DNA from: Colwellia sp.
Lineage (GTDB): Bacteria; Pseudomonadota; Gammaproteobacteria; Enterobacterales; Alteromonadaceae
Assembly (NCBI GenBank): GCA_002733765.1
Contig: NVWU01000004.1
Coordinates: 243,078 to 307,077, forward strand
DNA length: 64,000 bases
Direction of reading: 5' to 3'
Positions 31,839 to 51,029 of the stretch are shown here, piece after piece. Every line of letters starts with the position of its first letter. Within the stretch, counting starts at the first letter, position 1. Below the pieces are notes generated by a model. That model had not been told where the DNA came from. It made no database searches and was given only the letters and a program-made list of their open reading frames with translations. The position numbers were made by a program, and so were the translations under genes.

Positions 31839-32195
31839 TACCAATCAGACTAACTAAGTGATCATCTTCAATGGTCTAAATAACCTCAGCTCGGCTTAAT
31901 AAATACCTCTGTAGCGGTTATTTTTATTAACTTCAGCGTTAAATTTACTTGCAATAGGTTAGCTATTGATACGAAAAATTTCCTTGAATTAAGAAAAACT
32001 ATTTCGCTATAAATATTAAATAGTTATTCATCTATAATTTCAATTGCTATTAAACCGAGTTGAGGTTAAATATCCAATTTCTTCGTGGTGTTCAATCCCA
32101 ATAGCCAGCGATTACTTAATCACACGCCTTAAACTTGAATTTTTATCCCTTATTAATCTGCTTGTATGGTTAATCTATTACATTAATTGGTATTA
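31839..32195. repeat. Large palindromic intergenic repeat carrying a MITE
   Basis: The left end TACCAATCAGACTAACTAAG (31839-31858) matches the copy at 50690 exactly over 20 bases, and the right end is ATTAATTGGTATTA (32182-32195). The interior GTTCAATCCCAATAGCC also matches 50754-50766. Compared with 50690-50846 it is interrupted by a 184-bp insert at 31883-32066. The rest of the gap to 32366 should hold the promoter of the following operon; I cannot place it firmly. Confidence 0.75.
31883..32066. mobile_element. 184-bp MITE with terminal inverted repeats and 6-bp target duplication
   Basis: ACCTCAGCTCGGCTTAATA (31883-31901) and TATTAAACCGAGTTGAGGT (32048-32066) are inverted repeats identical at 17 of 19 positions. 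TAAATA precedes (31877-31882) and follows (32067-32072) the element. The uninterrupted repeat at 50690 has a single CTAAATATCC there, which shows the insertion event. No coding sequence is inside. A shortened relative lies at 9894-10005. Confidence 0.85.
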
Positions 32196-32366: not shown

Positions 32367-33179
32367 ATGCCAGCAACTGATATCAATACTGTATCTACAC
32401 CACTGAGTGCCTATGCATTACGACAGCTGATCCGCGCGGGAGACTTTTCCAGTAATACCTCTGGGTTTGCCCAAGGTTGCGTGCAGGGAAATATTGTTAT
32501 TCTACCTAAAGATTGGGCAGGCGACTTTTTGCAATTTTGTCAGTTTAATCCAAAACCTTGTCCGTTAATTGGCATGTCAACCAATGCGGGTGATTTTCTC
32601 TTACCTGAGCTTGGTCAAGATATTGATATCCGCAGTGATGTACCGGGTTATCGTTTGTTTGAGAATGGTATATTTAAACAAGAGTTAGCCGATATTAAAC
32701 ACCTTTGGCGTGACGATTTAGTGACTTTTGTTTTAGGGTGTTCTTTTTCTTTTGAAGAAGCACTTATTGCTGATGGACTTGAGATTCGTAATATTAGCGA
32801 AAACAAAAATGTGCCTATGTATCGTACTAATATAGCCTGTAAATCAGCAGGGCGCTTTAGTGGTGAAACCGTGGTAAGCATGCGCCCTATGTTGGCCAAA
32901 GATGCGATACGTGCGATACAAATTTGTAGTCGTTTTCCGTCAGTGCATGGTGCACCAATACATTTTGGTGATCCTAAATTGATTGGTATTGATGATATCA
33001 ATACCCCTGACTATGGTGATGCGGTAACTATTAACGATCATGAAGTGCCGGTGTTTTGGGCTTGTGGGGTAACACCTCAACTTGCATTAGAGCAAACGAA
33101 ACCACCATTTTGTATTACTCATAGTCCGGGAAAAATGTTAGTGACTGATATTGTGAACTCTACACTCGCGGTGCTGTAA
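32367..33179 (+). CDS. DUF1445 putative hydro-lyase (UPF0317), D-glutamate cyclase N-domain homolog
   Basis: 270 residues of the DUF1445/UPF0317 family, with [17 protein letters not shown], the central [13 protein letters not shown] and a late [11 protein letters not shown]. Length is normal. The family is usually annotated as a putative hydro-lyase. The same domain forms the N-terminal part of animal mitochondrial D-glutamate cyclase, whose C-terminal part is DUF4392, encoded four genes downstream here. It starts the pxpABC-containing operon; GGAG stands six bases before the ATG. Confidence 0.88.
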
Positions 33180-33198
33180 ATCTTTATAAAGAGGAAAT

Positions 33199-33927
33199 AT
33201 GATGAAGTTAAATTGTGATTTAGGCGAAAGTTTTGGCAGTTGGACTATGGGCTTAGACGAACAGGTCATGCCCCACATAGATCAAGCTAATATCGCTTGC
33301 GGTTTTCATGCGGGTGATCCTTTAGTGATGCAAAAAACGCTCAAATTAGCGAAAATTCACCATGTTACAGTTGGTGCTCATCCTGGTTATCCTGATCTTG
33401 TTGGTTTTGGTCGCCGTTCTATGAATTGTTCTACCGATGAAATTATTGCGCTAGTGACTTATCAAGTTGCTGCTATTGACGGTGTCGCGAAATCGCTAGG
33501 ACTTGAGCTTGAATATGTCAAACCTCATGGCGCTTTATACAATGACATGATGGTGAAAGACAATGTGCGTGAGGCAATACTTACGGCGTTATCAAACTAT
33601 CACAAACCGCTTAAATTAATGTTACAAGCAACACCGCAGATTGAGCAACATAGAGTGGAAGCAAAATTTTTTGGTATTGAAATTTTAAGTGAAGCATTTG
33701 CAGACCGATGTTATGCCGATGATGGCAAATTATTAGCACGTAGCAAAGTAGGAGCAGTACATAATAAAGAAAAAATGCTTGCCCAAGTGAAACAGTTAAA
33801 AGAGCAAGGTTGTGTTACGACGGTTAGTGGTCATATCTTAAGGTTAAATGCAGATAGTTTATGCGTACATGGTGATAACATTGAAGCTGTACAGGCTATT
33901 GAAGCGATTAGGGAGCTAATAGACTAA
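33199..33927 (+). CDS. pxpA: 5-oxoprolinase subunit A (LamB/YcsF family)
   Basis: 242 residues of the PxpA family, starting K-L-N-C-D-L-G-E-S-F-G and with I-A-C-G-F-H-A-G-D-P, V-G-A-H-P-G-Y-P-D and V-K-P-H-G-A-L-Y-N. These histidine and aspartate residues mark the metal-dependent hydrolase-like site. With PxpB and PxpC it opens 5-oxoproline to glutamate using ATP. GAGGA precedes two adjacent ATGs; either may be used. The stop overlaps the pxpB start (TAATG). Confidence 0.95.
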   Translation: MMKLNCDLGESFGSWTMGLDEQVMPHIDQANIACGFHAGDPLVMQKTLKLAKIHHVTVGAHPGYPDLVGFGRRSMNCSTDEIIALVTYQVAAIDGVAKSLGLELEYVKPHGALYNDMMVKDNVREAILTALSNYHKPLKLMLQATPQIEQHRVEAKFFGIEILSEAFADRCYADDGKLLARSKVGAVHNKEKMLAQVKQLKEQGCVTTVSGHILRLNADSLCVHGDNIEAVQAIEAIRELID

Positions 33928-34661
33928 TGTCCCACAATATTCATATCGCGGGTGAAAACGCACTAATTATCTATTTTAGTAAGCCAGGTGATGGCCACGT
34001 TAGTGCTAATCTTTCGGCTAAAGTGCAGCAAGCAGAGCAGCTGATACGTAAAGCGATGGAGCAGGAACTAGCACAAGACATTATTGATTTGGTGCCATCT
34101 TACGCCTCCTTGATGGTGATGTTTAATATGATGACCACAGACCATCATTTAATAAAAAACAAACTACGTACATTGTTGCAACAAATGCATAATTCGAAAG
34201 AGCAAGTGGCTACGCATCAAGCTAATTTAGTGGAACTGCCGGTTTACTATAGTCATGAGTCTGGCCCTGATTTATCTGTTATTGCGCAGCGTGCTCAGTT
34301 AACCGTTGAACAGGTTATTGAACTTCATCAAGCGCAAGAGTATCGCGTTTATGCTATTGGCTTTGCACCTGGTTTTGCTTACTTAGGTGAGGTAGATGAA
34401 CGTATTGCTGCGCCACGGTTGAGTACACCTAGAATGAAAGTACCTAAAGGCGCTGTTGCTATTGCTGATAGACAAACGGCTGTTTACCCTAGTGTTTCCC
34501 CTGGTGGTTGGAATATTATTGGTCTTTGTCCTATTGATATGTTTGATGCGAAAGCAAATCCGACTATGCCTGTGGCCGTTGGTGACAGAGTGAAATTTAA
34601 AGCTATTTCTAAAGACGAATATATAGCCCTAGGCGGAGCGTTAGAGGTGAGTTATGAGTAA
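33927..34661 (+). CDS. pxpB: 5-oxoprolinase subunit B (KipI/PxpB family)
   Basis: 244 residues of the PxpB/KipI family, with V-P-S-Y-A-S-L-M-V early, and the conserved V-Y-A-I-G-F-A-P-G-F-A-Y-L-G and P-R-M-K-V-P-K-G-A-V-A-I. S-P-G-G-W-N-I-I-G follows. The fold is cyclophilin-like and it pairs with PxpC. It overlaps pxpC by 8 bases, so subunit production is coupled. No unusual features. Confidence 0.95.
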   Translation: MSHNIHIAGENALIIYFSKPGDGHVSANLSAKVQQAEQLIRKAMEQELAQDIIDLVPSYASLMVMFNMMTTDHHLIKNKLRTLLQQMHNSKEQVATHQANLVELPVYYSHESGPDLSVIAQRAQLTVEQVIELHQAQEYRVYAIGFAPGFAYLGEVDERIAAPRLSTPRMKVPKGAVAIADRQTAVYPSVSPGGWNIIGLCPIDMFDAKANPTMPVAVGDRVKFKAISKDEYIALGGALEVSYE

Positions 34662-35622
34662 TTCCTCATTGACACAGGGCTTTTTAGTTAAACAAGCTGG
34701 CATGTTAAGTCTTATTCAAGATGCCGGCCGTTTTGGTGCTTTTAATATTGGCTTAACCAATGGTGGTCCAATAGATTTACTTGCCTTTCAATGGGCAAAC
34801 CGTCTGTGTCATAACACAGTAAATGCTACCGCAATTGAAATTAGTCTAGGCGGGTTAACGTTAACTGCACAAGTTGACACTAGTCTAGCGGTTACCGGGG
34901 CGAACATGCCGCTGACCATTAATGGAGAAATAAAAGCGTTATGGCGTAGTTATCACGTAAAAGCGGGTGATGTTATTGCCTTAGGTTTTGCAACGCAAGG
35001 TGTGCGTTGTTACTTAGCGGTTGCTGGTGGCTTTAACATTACGCCAAGTTTTGGTAGTACCGCCACTGTTTGTCGTGAGGGTGTTGGCGGTTTACATGGT
35101 GGAAAGTTATTGGCAGGCGATATGTTAGCTTGTGCTAGTAACAACATAAATAGTAACAAAAAGCAGAATCTCTTATTAGTAGAAAAATTAATTCCTACCT
35201 ATACTGATGAAATAATATTACATACCGTACCAAGCTATCAACAACAGCATTTTAGTTCACAGCAACAACGTTTGTTCTTTTCTAATGAATATACGGTGAG
35301 TAAAAGCTTTGATCGTATGGGGTATAGATTAGAAGGTCAGGCAATTGCGTGTGACATTAAAGGCATTTTATCGGAAGGAATTTGCCATGGTGCAGTCCAA
35401 ATTCCCGCTGACGGTCAACCCATTGTGTTACTCAATGATAGACAAACCATTGGTGGTTACCCCAAAATTGGCGCTGTTTCTTCTATAGATACCGCTAAAC
35501 TAGGGCAATTAAACCAAGGTGGCAAAGTACGCTTTGAACCTATTAGTATGGAACAGGCTCATAACCTATTTCATTTAAATTTAAGCCGTTTTAATCGTAC
35601 CGAGTTAGTTGTTTGTGATTAA
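34654..35622 (+). CDS. pxpC: 5-oxoprolinase subunit C (KipA/PxpC family)
   Basis: 322 residues of the biotin-carboxylase-like KipA/PxpC family. Marks are S-L-I-Q-D-A-G-R-F-G near the start, L-A-V-A-G-G-F (about 125), S-F-D-R-M-G-Y-R-L and a late Q-I-P-A-D-G-Q-P-I-V-L-L-N-D-R-Q-T-I-G-G-Y-P. It forms the 5-oxoprolinase complex with PxpB. The ORF is intact and overlaps pxpB. It is followed after 43 bases by the DUF4392 gene. Confidence 0.95.
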   Translation: MSNSSLTQGFLVKQAGMLSLIQDAGRFGAFNIGLTNGGPIDLLAFQWANRLCHNTVNATAIEISLGGLTLTAQVDTSLAVTGANMPLTINGEIKALWRSYHVKAGDVIALGFATQGVRCYLAVAGGFNITPSFGSTATVCREGVGGLHGGKLLAGDMLACASNNINSNKKQNLLLVEKLIPTYTDEIILHTVPSYQQQHFSSQQQRLFFSNEYTVSKSFDRMGYRLEGQAIACDIKGILSEGICHGAVQIPADGQPIVLLNDRQTIGGYPKIGAVSSIDTAKLGQLNQGGKVRFEPISMEQAHNLFHLNLSRFNRTELVVCD

Positions 35623-35665
35623 TGTTGGAATAAATTAAGACTGGAATAAAGAGAGAAAAACGTTA

Positions 35666-36520
35666 ATGAAAAAACAAGCTTTAGATGAACAATCACTTAG
35701 TGAACAAATAGAAAATATGCTTGTTGAGCGTAATTTACGTGGCATGAAAAACTTACAAACTGAGCTTGCTGCAGGTTATTGCTTGCGCGCGGCTAAAGTA
35801 ATGCGTGACATTAAAGGTACAGTACTTATTGGTACTGGCTTTCCTGTAGTTGACACGTTTGAAACGGATGGACCTGTTGGCGCCTTAATTTTATATCGTG
35901 CGCTGGAGTTTTTAGGGGCAACCCCCGTACTCGTTTGCGGTACGCCCATGGCAACGGCTTTTCAATATGATTATCGAACGTGTGTTATCAGTGTGGGTAA
36001 AAAAGAGTGTGGTTTGGTGGAAGCAAAACGAGCCTTAGCCCACTATAAACCTGAAGCTATTATTTCAATAGAGCGCCCTGGGTTAGCTGAGAATGGTTGC
36101 TATCATAATATGCGAGGTGAAGACATTAGTGCGCGCGCTGCTTGTTTTGATTTTTTTATGGATGAAGCAAATTGCCCAACTATTGCCATTGGTGATGGTG
36201 GTAATGAAATTGGTATGGGTAACGTCAAAGCGTTCTTAGCTGAATTAGACATTATTCCTGCGGTCACTGAGTGTGATGAATTAATTATTAGTGATGTTTC
36301 AAATTGGGGCGTTTATGGTATTTTAGCGTTTTTAAGTATTTGGTCTAAACATGACTTATTAAATGAGGCTTGCCCTGAGCAGATATTAAAATATATTTCA
36401 AATTTAGGTAGCGTAGATGGTGTTACTCGGAGAAATGAATTAACAGAAGATAGCCTACCGGCATCAGAAGGCATTGCCTTGATTGGGCGAATTAGAGCAT
36501 TAATTGGTTATAACAATTAA
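35666..36520 (+). CDS. DUF4392 protein, D-glutamate cyclase C-domain homolog
   Basis: 284 residues. The DUF4392 core shows V-L-I-G-T-G-F-P-V, F-E-T-D-G-P-V-G-A, S-I-E-R-P-G and A-I-G-D-G-G-N-E-I-G-M-G-N. This domain is the C-terminal half of animal D-glutamate cyclase, which turns D-glutamate into 5-oxo-D-proline. Here it stands as a separate gene beside 5-oxoprolinase and DUF1445, which supports the same chemistry. The last codons and stop lie in the left end of a palindromic repeat, so the C-terminus may have been reshaped. Confidence 0.88.
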   Translation: MKKQALDEQSLSEQIENMLVERNLRGMKNLQTELAAGYCLRAAKVMRDIKGTVLIGTGFPVVDTFETDGPVGALILYRALEFLGATPVLVCGTPMATAFQYDYRTCVISVGKKECGLVEAKRALAHYKPEAIISIERPGLAENGCYHNMRGEDISARAACFDFFMDEANCPTIAIGDGGNEIGMGNVKAFLAELDIIPAVTECDELIISDVSNWGVYGILAFLSIWSKHDLLNEACPEQILKYISNLGSVDGVTRRNELTEDSLPASEGIALIGRIRALIGYNN

Positions 36521-36588
36521 ACTAATTAAGTGATTTATTTAAATGGTCTAAATTAAAGTTTAAACCATTAAATTAATCTGATTGGTAT
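36519..36588. repeat. Palindromic intergenic repeat, TACCAATC family
   Basis: CTAATTAAGTGAT near 36531 and the right end CTGATTGGTA (36579-36588) match the copies at 31839 and 50690; the left end overlaps the DUF4392 stop codon. Inside, ATGGTCTA and TTTAAACCAT are themselves inverted. It lies between the DUF4392 and aminotransferase genes. Confidence 0.65.
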
Positions 36589-36623
36589 TATTAATATAAA
36601 TAGTAGAATGATAGGAAAATAAA

Positions 36624-37484
36624 ATGAGCACAGTATTTTTAAATGGCAATTATATGCCTATTGAAGAAGCTAAAATTTCCCCTCTTGATCGTGGTTTTTT
36701 ATTTGGTGATGGTATCTATGAAGTAATCCCGTCATATTCGGGTAAAATGGTCGGCTTTCAAGGCCATATTAATCGCATGAATGATGGGCTTAACGCGATT
36801 GGTATTGAGCTAAACTGGAGTGATACACAATGGCAAGTATTGTGTGACACTTTAAGCGAAAAAAACGGCTCGGGTCCATTAGGTATTTATTTACATGTGA
36901 CTCGTGGTACAGACACTAAACGTTTTCATGCTTTTCCTAAAGGTGTTACACCCACAGTATTTGCAATGGCTTTTGAAATTCCTGTTCCTAAAATACCTGA
37001 TTTAGCTACGGTAGGCAAAGGTTATGCATTAACTAGCACTGAAGATTTACGCTGGCAGCGTTGTCAAATAAAATCGACATCGTTACTTGGCAATGTTTTA
37101 CATTTTCAAGAAGGTTATGCTGCAGGTAGCCAAGAAACCTTGCTATATAACAGTAACAATGAATTAACTGAAGCGAGTGCCTCTAATATTTTTATTGTTA
37201 AAGACGGTGTTATCGCTACGCCTATTCAAGACAATCAAATTTTATCAGGTATTACCCGTCGGTTAGTCATTGATATATTGGCTAAAGATGGTTCTCTTAT
37301 ACTTGAAGAGAGAGTTATCACACTTGATGAAGTTAATACAGCGGATGAAATTTGGATCACCAGTTCGTCTAAAGAAATTGCCCCAGTGACCATGTTAGAC
37401 AATAAAGTGGTTGGTGATGGCAACGTTGGACCCGTTTGGTTAAAAGCCGCGACGCTATACTCAACAAATAAATTTTCTTATTAA
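36624..37484 (+). CDS. dat: D-amino-acid aminotransferase (class IV PLP enzyme)
   Basis: 286 residues of fold-type IV aminotransferases. The opening with G-N-Y-M-P-I-E-E-A-K-I-S-P-L-D-R-G-F-L-F has the D-R-G-F-x-F-G-D-G-I-Y-E pattern of D-alanine aminotransferase. The PLP lysine is in Q-I-K-S-T-S-L-L-G-N-V, and E-A-S-A-S-N-I-F with the late I-T-R-R-L-V complete the site. It would move amino groups between D-alanine and 2-oxoglutarate to make or consume D-glutamate. It ends a cluster of D-glutamate and 5-oxoproline genes. A branched-chain or 4-amino-4-deoxychorismate role is less likely; pabC is separate at 62842. Confidence 0.85.
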   Translation: MSTVFLNGNYMPIEEAKISPLDRGFLFGDGIYEVIPSYSGKMVGFQGHINRMNDGLNAIGIELNWSDTQWQVLCDTLSEKNGSGPLGIYLHVTRGTDTKRFHAFPKGVTPTVFAMAFEIPVPKIPDLATVGKGYALTSTEDLRWQRCQIKSTSLLGNVLHFQEGYAAGSQETLLYNSNNELTEASASNIFIVKDGVIATPIQDNQILSGITRRLVIDILAKDGSLILEERVITLDEVNTADEIWITSSSKEIAPVTMLDNKVVGDGNVGPVWLKAATLYSTNKFSY

Positions 37485-37531: not shown

Positions 37532-37566
37532 AGAGTTACCTACCTTTAGAGTAGGGTAACTCTTTT
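37532..37566 (+). terminator. Rho-independent terminator after dat
   Basis: AGAGTTACCTAC and GTAGGGTAACTCT form a stem with one bulged base and a short loop, followed by TTTT. It closes the DUF1445-pxpABC-DUF4392-dat cluster. Confidence 0.8.
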
Positions 37567-50689: not shown

Positions 50690-50846
50690 TACCAATCAGA
50701 CTAACTAAGTGATCTTTTAAAATGGTCTAAATATCCAATAACATCATTGCTTTCAATCCCAATAGCCCGCTATTGGTCAATCAAGCGTCTTGTTCTTGAA
50801 GATTTACCCTCATTAAAATTTGAACCATGAATTAATCTGATTGGTA
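50690..50846. repeat. Large palindromic intergenic repeat, uninterrupted copy
   Basis: TACCAATCAGACTAACTAAG (50690-50709) and the right end ATTAATCTGATTGGTA (50831-50846) are inverted. Inner dyads include ATGGTCTAAAT with ATTTGAACCAT and AATAGCCCGCTATT. The same unit, with a MITE inserted, is at 31839-32195; shorter derivatives are at 17963, 36519 and 5375. Confidence 0.8.
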
Positions 50847-51029
50847 TTACTCCCTTGTCAAAATCAATAATGCAGCATATATACCTTTTAAACTCAGCCT
50901 TGGGGCTTGTCAGGAAAGTAATAACCTCACAAATTTGTTTGATTATAGAGTAACAAATTTTGCTTATTCTAACCTCTTTAACACAGTTCTGAAGTGACTC
51001 ATTCATTCTTTCATTTGGTATTAGGCATT

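Follow-up and report, generated by a model that had tools for sequence, protein, structure and literature searches.

In a 64,000-nucleotide stretch of DNA from Colwellia sp. (contig NVWU01000004.1, positions 243,078 to 307,077; the whole stretch is called the window below), six genes follow one another on one strand: DUF1445, the 5-oxoprolinase genes pxpA, pxpB and pxpC, DUF4392, and a gene for a dat-like class IV aminotransferase. The operon itself is real and widespread. The best explanation for it as a whole, to which we give a probability of about one half, is that the six genes form a single unit for the supply and drainage of D-glutamate, a building block of the cell wall. Computation shows which genes are present, how they are conserved and that they come and go together, that the residues of the metal site and of the carboxylate trap are intact, and that the glutamate racemase MurI is frequently absent. 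In such a unit, the dat-like transaminase would form D-glutamate from D-alanine and 2-oxoglutarate, with an alanine racemase often encoded next door in relatives, and would be able to replace MurI. The DUF4392 protein, which has a two-metal site, would convert surplus or salvaged D-glutamate into 5-oxo-D-proline. An inversion to 5-oxo-L-proline would follow, for which DUF1445 is the simplest candidate, and an ordinary ATP-driven PxpABC would open this product to L-glutamate, making the passage from D to L one-way. The direction, with Dat supplying and the rest draining, is likely, and we infer all of the reactions and directions; this applies most strongly to the inversion and to the part given to DUF1445 in it. 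The most specific form of the idea is tentative: a one-way D-to-L converter acting via the lactam, with DUF1445 as a new 5-oxoproline racemase and with Dat-made D-glutamate plus the drain allowing cells to drop MurI.

All six reading frames are open on the plus strand, and the products match their families with Pfam E values of 2.6e-67 (DUF1445, PF07286), 4.5e-90 (pxpA, PF03746), 6.6e-66 (pxpB, PF02682), 2.7e-84 (pxpC, PF02626), 8.6e-64 (DUF4392, PF14336) and 6.9e-46 (dat-like, PF01063). Together with the NCBIfam matches, the open frames bear out the gene order on one strand that had been read earlier from the letters of the window (the original prediction). As an overall interpretation, that prediction is partly supported.

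The linkage of the genes is apparent from their distribution. The genus-level set comprised 61 genomes, that is, the window's own and 60 relatives, 37 of them in the genus. DUF4392 occurs in 10 of the 61, all within the genus, and DUF1445 in the identical 10 (10/37 of the genus), a joint pattern that exceeds chance; pxpA is present in 34 of the 37. A dat-like protein (E 1e-40) is encoded inside the cluster in nine of the ten DUF4392 genomes, against 0/27 of the other genus genomes; in the tenth (G003), the contig stops 265 bp past DUF4392. An even sample of 299 Pseudomonadota genomes contains DUF4392 in 10, DUF1445 in 55 and pxpA in 124. Both DUF1445 and pxpA accompany DUF4392 in 8 of its 10 genomes (Fisher 2.8e-5 for DUF1445 and 0.014 for pxpA; all p values in this work ignore shared ancestry). 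The case that would have spoken against the original prediction, a lack of any co-occurrence of pxp genes and DUF4392, is thus not seen, pxpA being present in eight of these ten genomes.

Wider loci were taken from the best 80 of 543 matches to the window DUF4392, a set that is biased towards its relatives and in which L082, L083, L084 and L145 repeat genomes G018, G003, G015 and G347. When the relevant flank extends for 5 kb or more, DUF1445 is found in 58 of 65 of these loci, pxpA in 63/65, pxpB in 62/65, pxpC in 60/65 and dat in 56/65; where both flanks are long enough, the six genes are complete in 37 of 55 gammaproteobacterial loci. Both the shared distribution in the genus and these wider loci support the earlier proposal that DUF1445, DUF4392, pxpABC and dat are linked. 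Dispersed arrangements also occur. In genome G181, an operon copy with the order DUF1445-pxpB-pxpC-DUF4392-dat (L078) is without pxpA, and the sole pxpA found lies about 500 kb off on the same contig. In G347, the route is located in two places, DUF1445-DUF4392 (L079) and dat with pxpA about 2 kb apart (C11, near 152505-155818).

The supply side of the proposed unit is represented by the dat-like protein. Its carboxylate trap consists of Y32, R100 and H102, with R100 and H102 in 71/71 aligned rows, and F27, Y32, V34 and P36 are kept in 69/69 rows, in agreement with the canonical motif 1 (F26, Y31, V/A33, K/R/P/T35) and the RxH motif of Dat (PMC10003956). Motif 2, xYxQ, is altered, with H91 in place of Q in the window and a division of 69 rows into 59 with H and 10 with Q. 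As the score against the D-amino-acid transaminase equivalog TIGR01121 is also below the cut-off (226.7 versus 277.45 bits), we call the protein dat-like. Among the best 80 loci, an alanine racemase family is present in 30, directly after dat in 28 (one representative annotated, TIGR00492, 381.4 bits, cut-off 168), and a LysR-type family in 18 (one representative annotated).

Within the genus, only five of the ten operon genomes have MurI above its cut-off; G011 (one contig), G015, G018 and G026 lack it, and in G017 it is decayed. Among the other genus genomes, 25 of 27 have MurI, while G009 has two adjacent pieces below the cut-off and G030 (76% complete) none. The murI remnant of G017 (C67, near 130523-130759) covers residues 24-104 only, in two frames and with stops. 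A separate, larger set of 54 operon genomes combined 50 of the 80 loci with G181, G250, G320 and G347, and was chosen by likeness to the window DUF4392. MurI is above the cut-off in 18 of these and not in 36, with no MurI-family match at E 1e-3 in 17. A dat-like match exists in all 54, at 52% identity or more in 53 of them and not always beside the operon. Records G352-G378, 27 in number and not titled as metagenome-assembled genomes, divide into 10 with and 17 without MurI; two further records of this kind, G399 and G400, are also without. For comparison, MurI is lacking in 16 of the 108 gammaproteobacteria in the even sample that have no DUF4392, counted as lacking when the E value is above 1e-30 or there is no match, versus the 36 of 54 operon genomes (Fisher 5.6e-11), an enrichment that rests on the 54 genomes picked by DUF4392 likeness together with the genus set. 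It is possible that the loss of MurI follows dat and not DUF4392. The original prediction had Dat either supplying or removing D-glutamate; because MurI is frequently absent where dat is present, this can be narrowed to a probable supply.

A RacD-like aspartate racemase was considered as the sole source of D-glutamate, given that overexpressed RacD is able to rescue a murI mutant of Vibrio fischeri (PMC12502697). This candidate was rejected for the 17 of 54 genomes, and for G018 and G026 in the genus, that have no MurI-family match at E 1e-3. Many MurI-less genomes hold weak MurI-family matches of 20-37 bits, and "no match" covers the MurI family, MurL-type routes not having been searched in these genomes.

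For the draining side, the window DUF4392 protein has all six acids (E66, D68, E136, D177, E181 and D251) that match the metal site of TON_0340, as given in PMC5132392. Five of them occur in 87/87 aligned rows and D251 in 86/87, a misframed row (L078c) having been dropped. Single-chain fusions of DUF1445 and DUF4392, in both domain orders, are present in prokaryotes; the separate genes of the original prediction thus hold for the window, but a split is not a bacterial rule. In six fused clusters of 864-945 aa (P0127, P0129, P0135, P0139, P0168 and P0177), DUF4392 is followed by a MurD-like N-terminal and middle region and then by DUF1445; the MurD-like region is without the C-terminal third of the profile and its MurD score is below the cut-off. 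Because DUF4392 and DUF1445 flank this region, D-glutamate is the probable common substrate, as had been proposed. Two further contexts of DUF4392 were encountered. At L075 (8754-13711, minus strand; G165), the last metal-site acid is replaced by N, and the neighbours of the gene encode a ligase resembling MurD and a protein distantly related to the MurL family. At L077 (5680-16401, minus strand; G328), DUF4392 occurs twice in a frame of 3573 aa, together with a DUF4781 domain; a DUF1445 gene adjoins this frame and a Fic-domain gene is near.

The stereochemistry of the last step depends on PxpABC. In the window, PxpA and PxpB are above their NCBIfam cut-offs; PxpC is below that of the equivalog NF045499 (209.3 bits, cut-off 500) and passes the broader TIGR00724 (Table 1), its closest solved relative being YbgK 5dud. 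In the trees of pxpA and pxpC, operon copies of the main lineage stand among the plain ones of close relatives, and a comparison of eight operon with five plain copies reveals no site that is fixed differently; this test has little power, as the number of such sites never exceeds 1 in any of the 1287 splits. On both grounds, a dedicated pxpABC paralogue of the window type is unsupported. Since no fixed difference emerges, within the power of that test, the PxpABC data lean towards a racemisation step that is missing, and away from a PxpABC specific for the D form. These findings also suggest that DUF1445 and, on the opposite flank, DUF4392-dat were gained or lost jointly around a pre-existing oxoprolinase. 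It could alternatively be imagined that PxpABC accepts 5-oxo-D-proline and yields D-glutamate, which Dat and alanine racemase would turn into 2-oxoglutarate and L-alanine, and no racemisation of the lactam would take place. The alanine racemase genes beside the operon are consistent with such a scheme. So are G008 and G033, which have an ordinary pxpABC and, elsewhere in the genome, a divergent operon copy; the divergent pxpABC form a clade of their own and possibly represent a dedicated paralogue. Apart from the mixing in the trees and the (weak) site comparison, a cyclase next to a D-specific hydrolase would waste ATP, and we regard the scheme as unlikely.

If the lactam is racemised, DUF1445 is a candidate for the missing inversion of 5-oxoproline. 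Many of its fully conserved residues look as if they belong to an active site, and cysteines C65, C125 and C233 are kept in 69/69 aligned rows. Within the sample of 299 genomes, DUF1445 and pxpA occur together in 46 of the 55 DUF1445 genomes. Furthermore, DUF1445 accompanies an unrelated hydantoinase/oxoprolinase family: of the nine DUF1445 genomes without pxpA, two have an adjoining fused Hydantoinase_A/B protein and one a Hydantoinase_A protein 2.8 kb off. An oxoprolinase role of the fused form is assumed from the name of a family that also includes hydantoinases. The loci at which DUF1445 adjoins or lies close to Hydantoinase_A/B proteins, pxpA being absent from the genome, are L172, L178 and L179. 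TRAP transporter genes lie near DUF1445 in five of the nine (G071 and G259 by Pfam; G078, G258 and G220 by blast grouping). In G228 (Pfam) and G277 (blast grouping), DUF1445 stands among flagellar genes, and these two cases lend no support.

Several observations weigh against the supply-and-drain reading, in addition to the shared ancestry that the p values ignore. The window's own genome retains MurI. In the even sample there is no enrichment of MurI loss, with one of six gammaproteobacterial DUF4392 genomes lacking MurI versus the 16 of 108 without DUF4392. Five family members without DUF4392 also lack MurI (G074, G272, G278, G288 and G340), and in the order, four genomes that have no DUF4392 encode a dat-like protein at 38-44% identity and retain MurI. 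We know of no activity for the separate bacterial DUF1445 and DUF4392 proteins. The predicted fold of DUF1445 has no racemase among the 50 structural matches listed (on re-aligning Foldseek's own top 1000), the class in question being the cofactor-independent racemases with two facing catalytic cysteines. Humans excrete 5-oxo-D-proline (PMC5339696), which would not be expected if the mammalian fusion of the two domains included an efficient racemase. Finally, a Thermococcus DUF4392 protein has been reported as a phosphatase (PMC5132392). DUF4392 could be a phosphatase or another hydrolase of small metabolites, and DUF1445 the cyclase or a ligand-binding regulatory partner. This seems improbable, since the DUF4392 of G165, which has no DUF1445 with it, sits beside the MurD-like ligase and MurL relative, as would fit a protein handling D-glutamate, and since the conserved DUF1445 residues resemble an active site.

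A different possibility is that the operon serves only in salvage: it would degrade D-glutamate from peptidoglycan, dat would merely dispose of D-amino acids, and the absence of MurI would be a coincidence of lineage. In G250, G320 and G008, the operon copy has recycling genes of N-acetylmuramate type as neighbours (etherase-type SIS, kinase-type and symporter, with NamZ in G250 and G320), and in G181 it adjoins a GH3 glycosidase. Salvage-type neighbours are thus found at four of six annotated operon loci that are not of the window type, and none at G347 and G033. The MurI-less family members without DUF4392 and the single MurI-less genome of six in the even sample point the same way. Cells without MurI nevertheless need another source of D-glutamate, and in the 54 operon genomes, 17 of which have no MurI-family match, a dat-like match is always present; moreover, the window's own flanks contain no recycling genes. 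Pure salvage is therefore doubtful as a general account. A role in peptidoglycan salvage, which the original prediction had suggested, is likely for some carriers, as the neighbours at the four related copies indicate, and only a possibility for the window.

Several known systems resemble parts of the proposed supply-and-drain unit. The mammalian mitochondrial D-glutamate cyclase (9030617O03Rik / C14orf159) has both domains, as does the window. The mouse fusion 9030617O03Rik converts D-glutamate to 5-oxo-D-proline, and D-glutamate builds up in knockout hearts (PMC5339696). In the window, in contrast, two separate genes surround pxpABC, with dat in addition, the cyclase activity being only predicted, and a return to glutamate is proposed where the mammalian product is excreted (PMC5339696). 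Linked steps for the two vertebrate domains were already proposed in PMC5132392. The split arrangement as such is likewise in print, because a table in a 2024 preprint lists homologues of the human D-glutamate cyclase in gut bacteria as 0 full and 6 split (PMC11580864).

As in the known PxpABC 5-oxoprolinase, the three subunits are adjacent in the window, with PxpA and PxpB above their cut-offs; PxpC below its equivalog cut-off and the flanking DUF1445, DUF4392 and dat set it apart. The pxpTABC genes of C. glutamicum are required for growth on 5-oxo-L-proline (PMC13274462), and terms for D-glutamate and DUF1445 were not found in that text. In Bacillus subtilis, YcsI shares the operon pxpA-ycsG-ycsI-pxpBC with the 5-oxoprolinase genes (PMC10448178). 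Unlike the window, this operon includes a manganese importer gene, and the control genome of B. subtilis has a PF07286 match and no DUF4392. The chemistry of DgcN-DgcA runs by N-acetylation. The window genes belong to other families, and the intermediate proposed here is a lactam instead of an N-acetyl compound. In marine bacteria, DgcN-DgcA is a one-way route from D- to L-glutamate at an energy cost (PMC12363236); "cyclase" was not found in the main text of this 2025 survey of D-amino-acid genes. In Staphylococcus aureus, MurI or Dat alone suffices and only the murI/dat double mutant needs D-glutamate (PMC5458566), whereas the marine dat is tied to oxoproline genes and MurI is often gone. In the open-licence literature, we found no paper in which a bacterial pathway connects DUF1445 or DUF4392 to PxpABC or Dat, and none on a lactam racemase.

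The features of the locus are collected in Table 1. In gene order, the spacing is a 19 bp gap, a 1 bp overlap, an 8 bp overlap, a 43 bp gap and 103 bp before dat. The last interval is 29 bp in the relatives L051 and L052 versus 103 bp here, and in G008, dat and DUF4392 share 4 bp. An imperfect palindromic sequence is dispersed in the window (31849-31881, 36521-36623 and 50700-50849), and a copy of about 100 bp splits DUF4392 from dat. The terminator that was said to close the operon has a counterpart in a hairpin 3' of dat, which forms 10 outer and 2 inner pairs on folding, with T-rich sequence behind it, but a consensus terminator scan gives no site after dat (3 terminator-like sites elsewhere in the window versus a shuffle mean of 4.5). 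The operon is flanked by a RIO kinase gene and a CBS-domain gene, and the named close relatives of the window DUF4392 protein are from Colwellia.

Table 1. The D-glutamate/5-oxoproline locus of the Colwellia window (positions in the window).
Feature	Position	Strand	Supporting score
DUF1445 / UPF0317 protein, 270 aa, candidate enzyme of 5-oxoproline, possibly its racemase	32367..33179	+	PF07286 225.6 bits (cut-off 25); NF003969 "putative hydro-lyase" 405.6 bits (cut-off 324)
pxpA, 5-oxoprolinase subunit A	33199..33927	+	NF003816 344.4 bits (cut-off 213)
pxpB, 5-oxoprolinase subunit B	33927..34661	+	TIGR00370 171.6 bits (cut-off 145.55)
pxpC, 5-oxoprolinase subunit C	34654..35622	+	TIGR00724 269.1 bits (cut-off 230.2)
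DUF4392 / GLUCM-like C-terminal protein, 284 aa, proposed D-glutamate cyclase	35666..36520	+	PF14336 216.2 bits (curated cut-off 27.9)
Dispersed inverted-repeat sequence between DUF4392 and dat	36521..36623	.	Fold -16.7 kcal/mol; partial copies elsewhere in the window
dat-like class IV aminotransferase, 286 aa, proposed D-glutamate supplier	36624..37484	+	PF01063 157.3 bits
Hairpin followed by T-rich sequence, possible terminator	37532..37563	+	Fold -13.9 kcal/mol

The six-gene operon offers a testable setting for two conserved families that are common to bacteria and animals. It proposes a path by which D-glutamate would return to L-glutamate, with a lactam racemase as a predicted component, and it may explain how many marine bacteria live without glutamate racemase.

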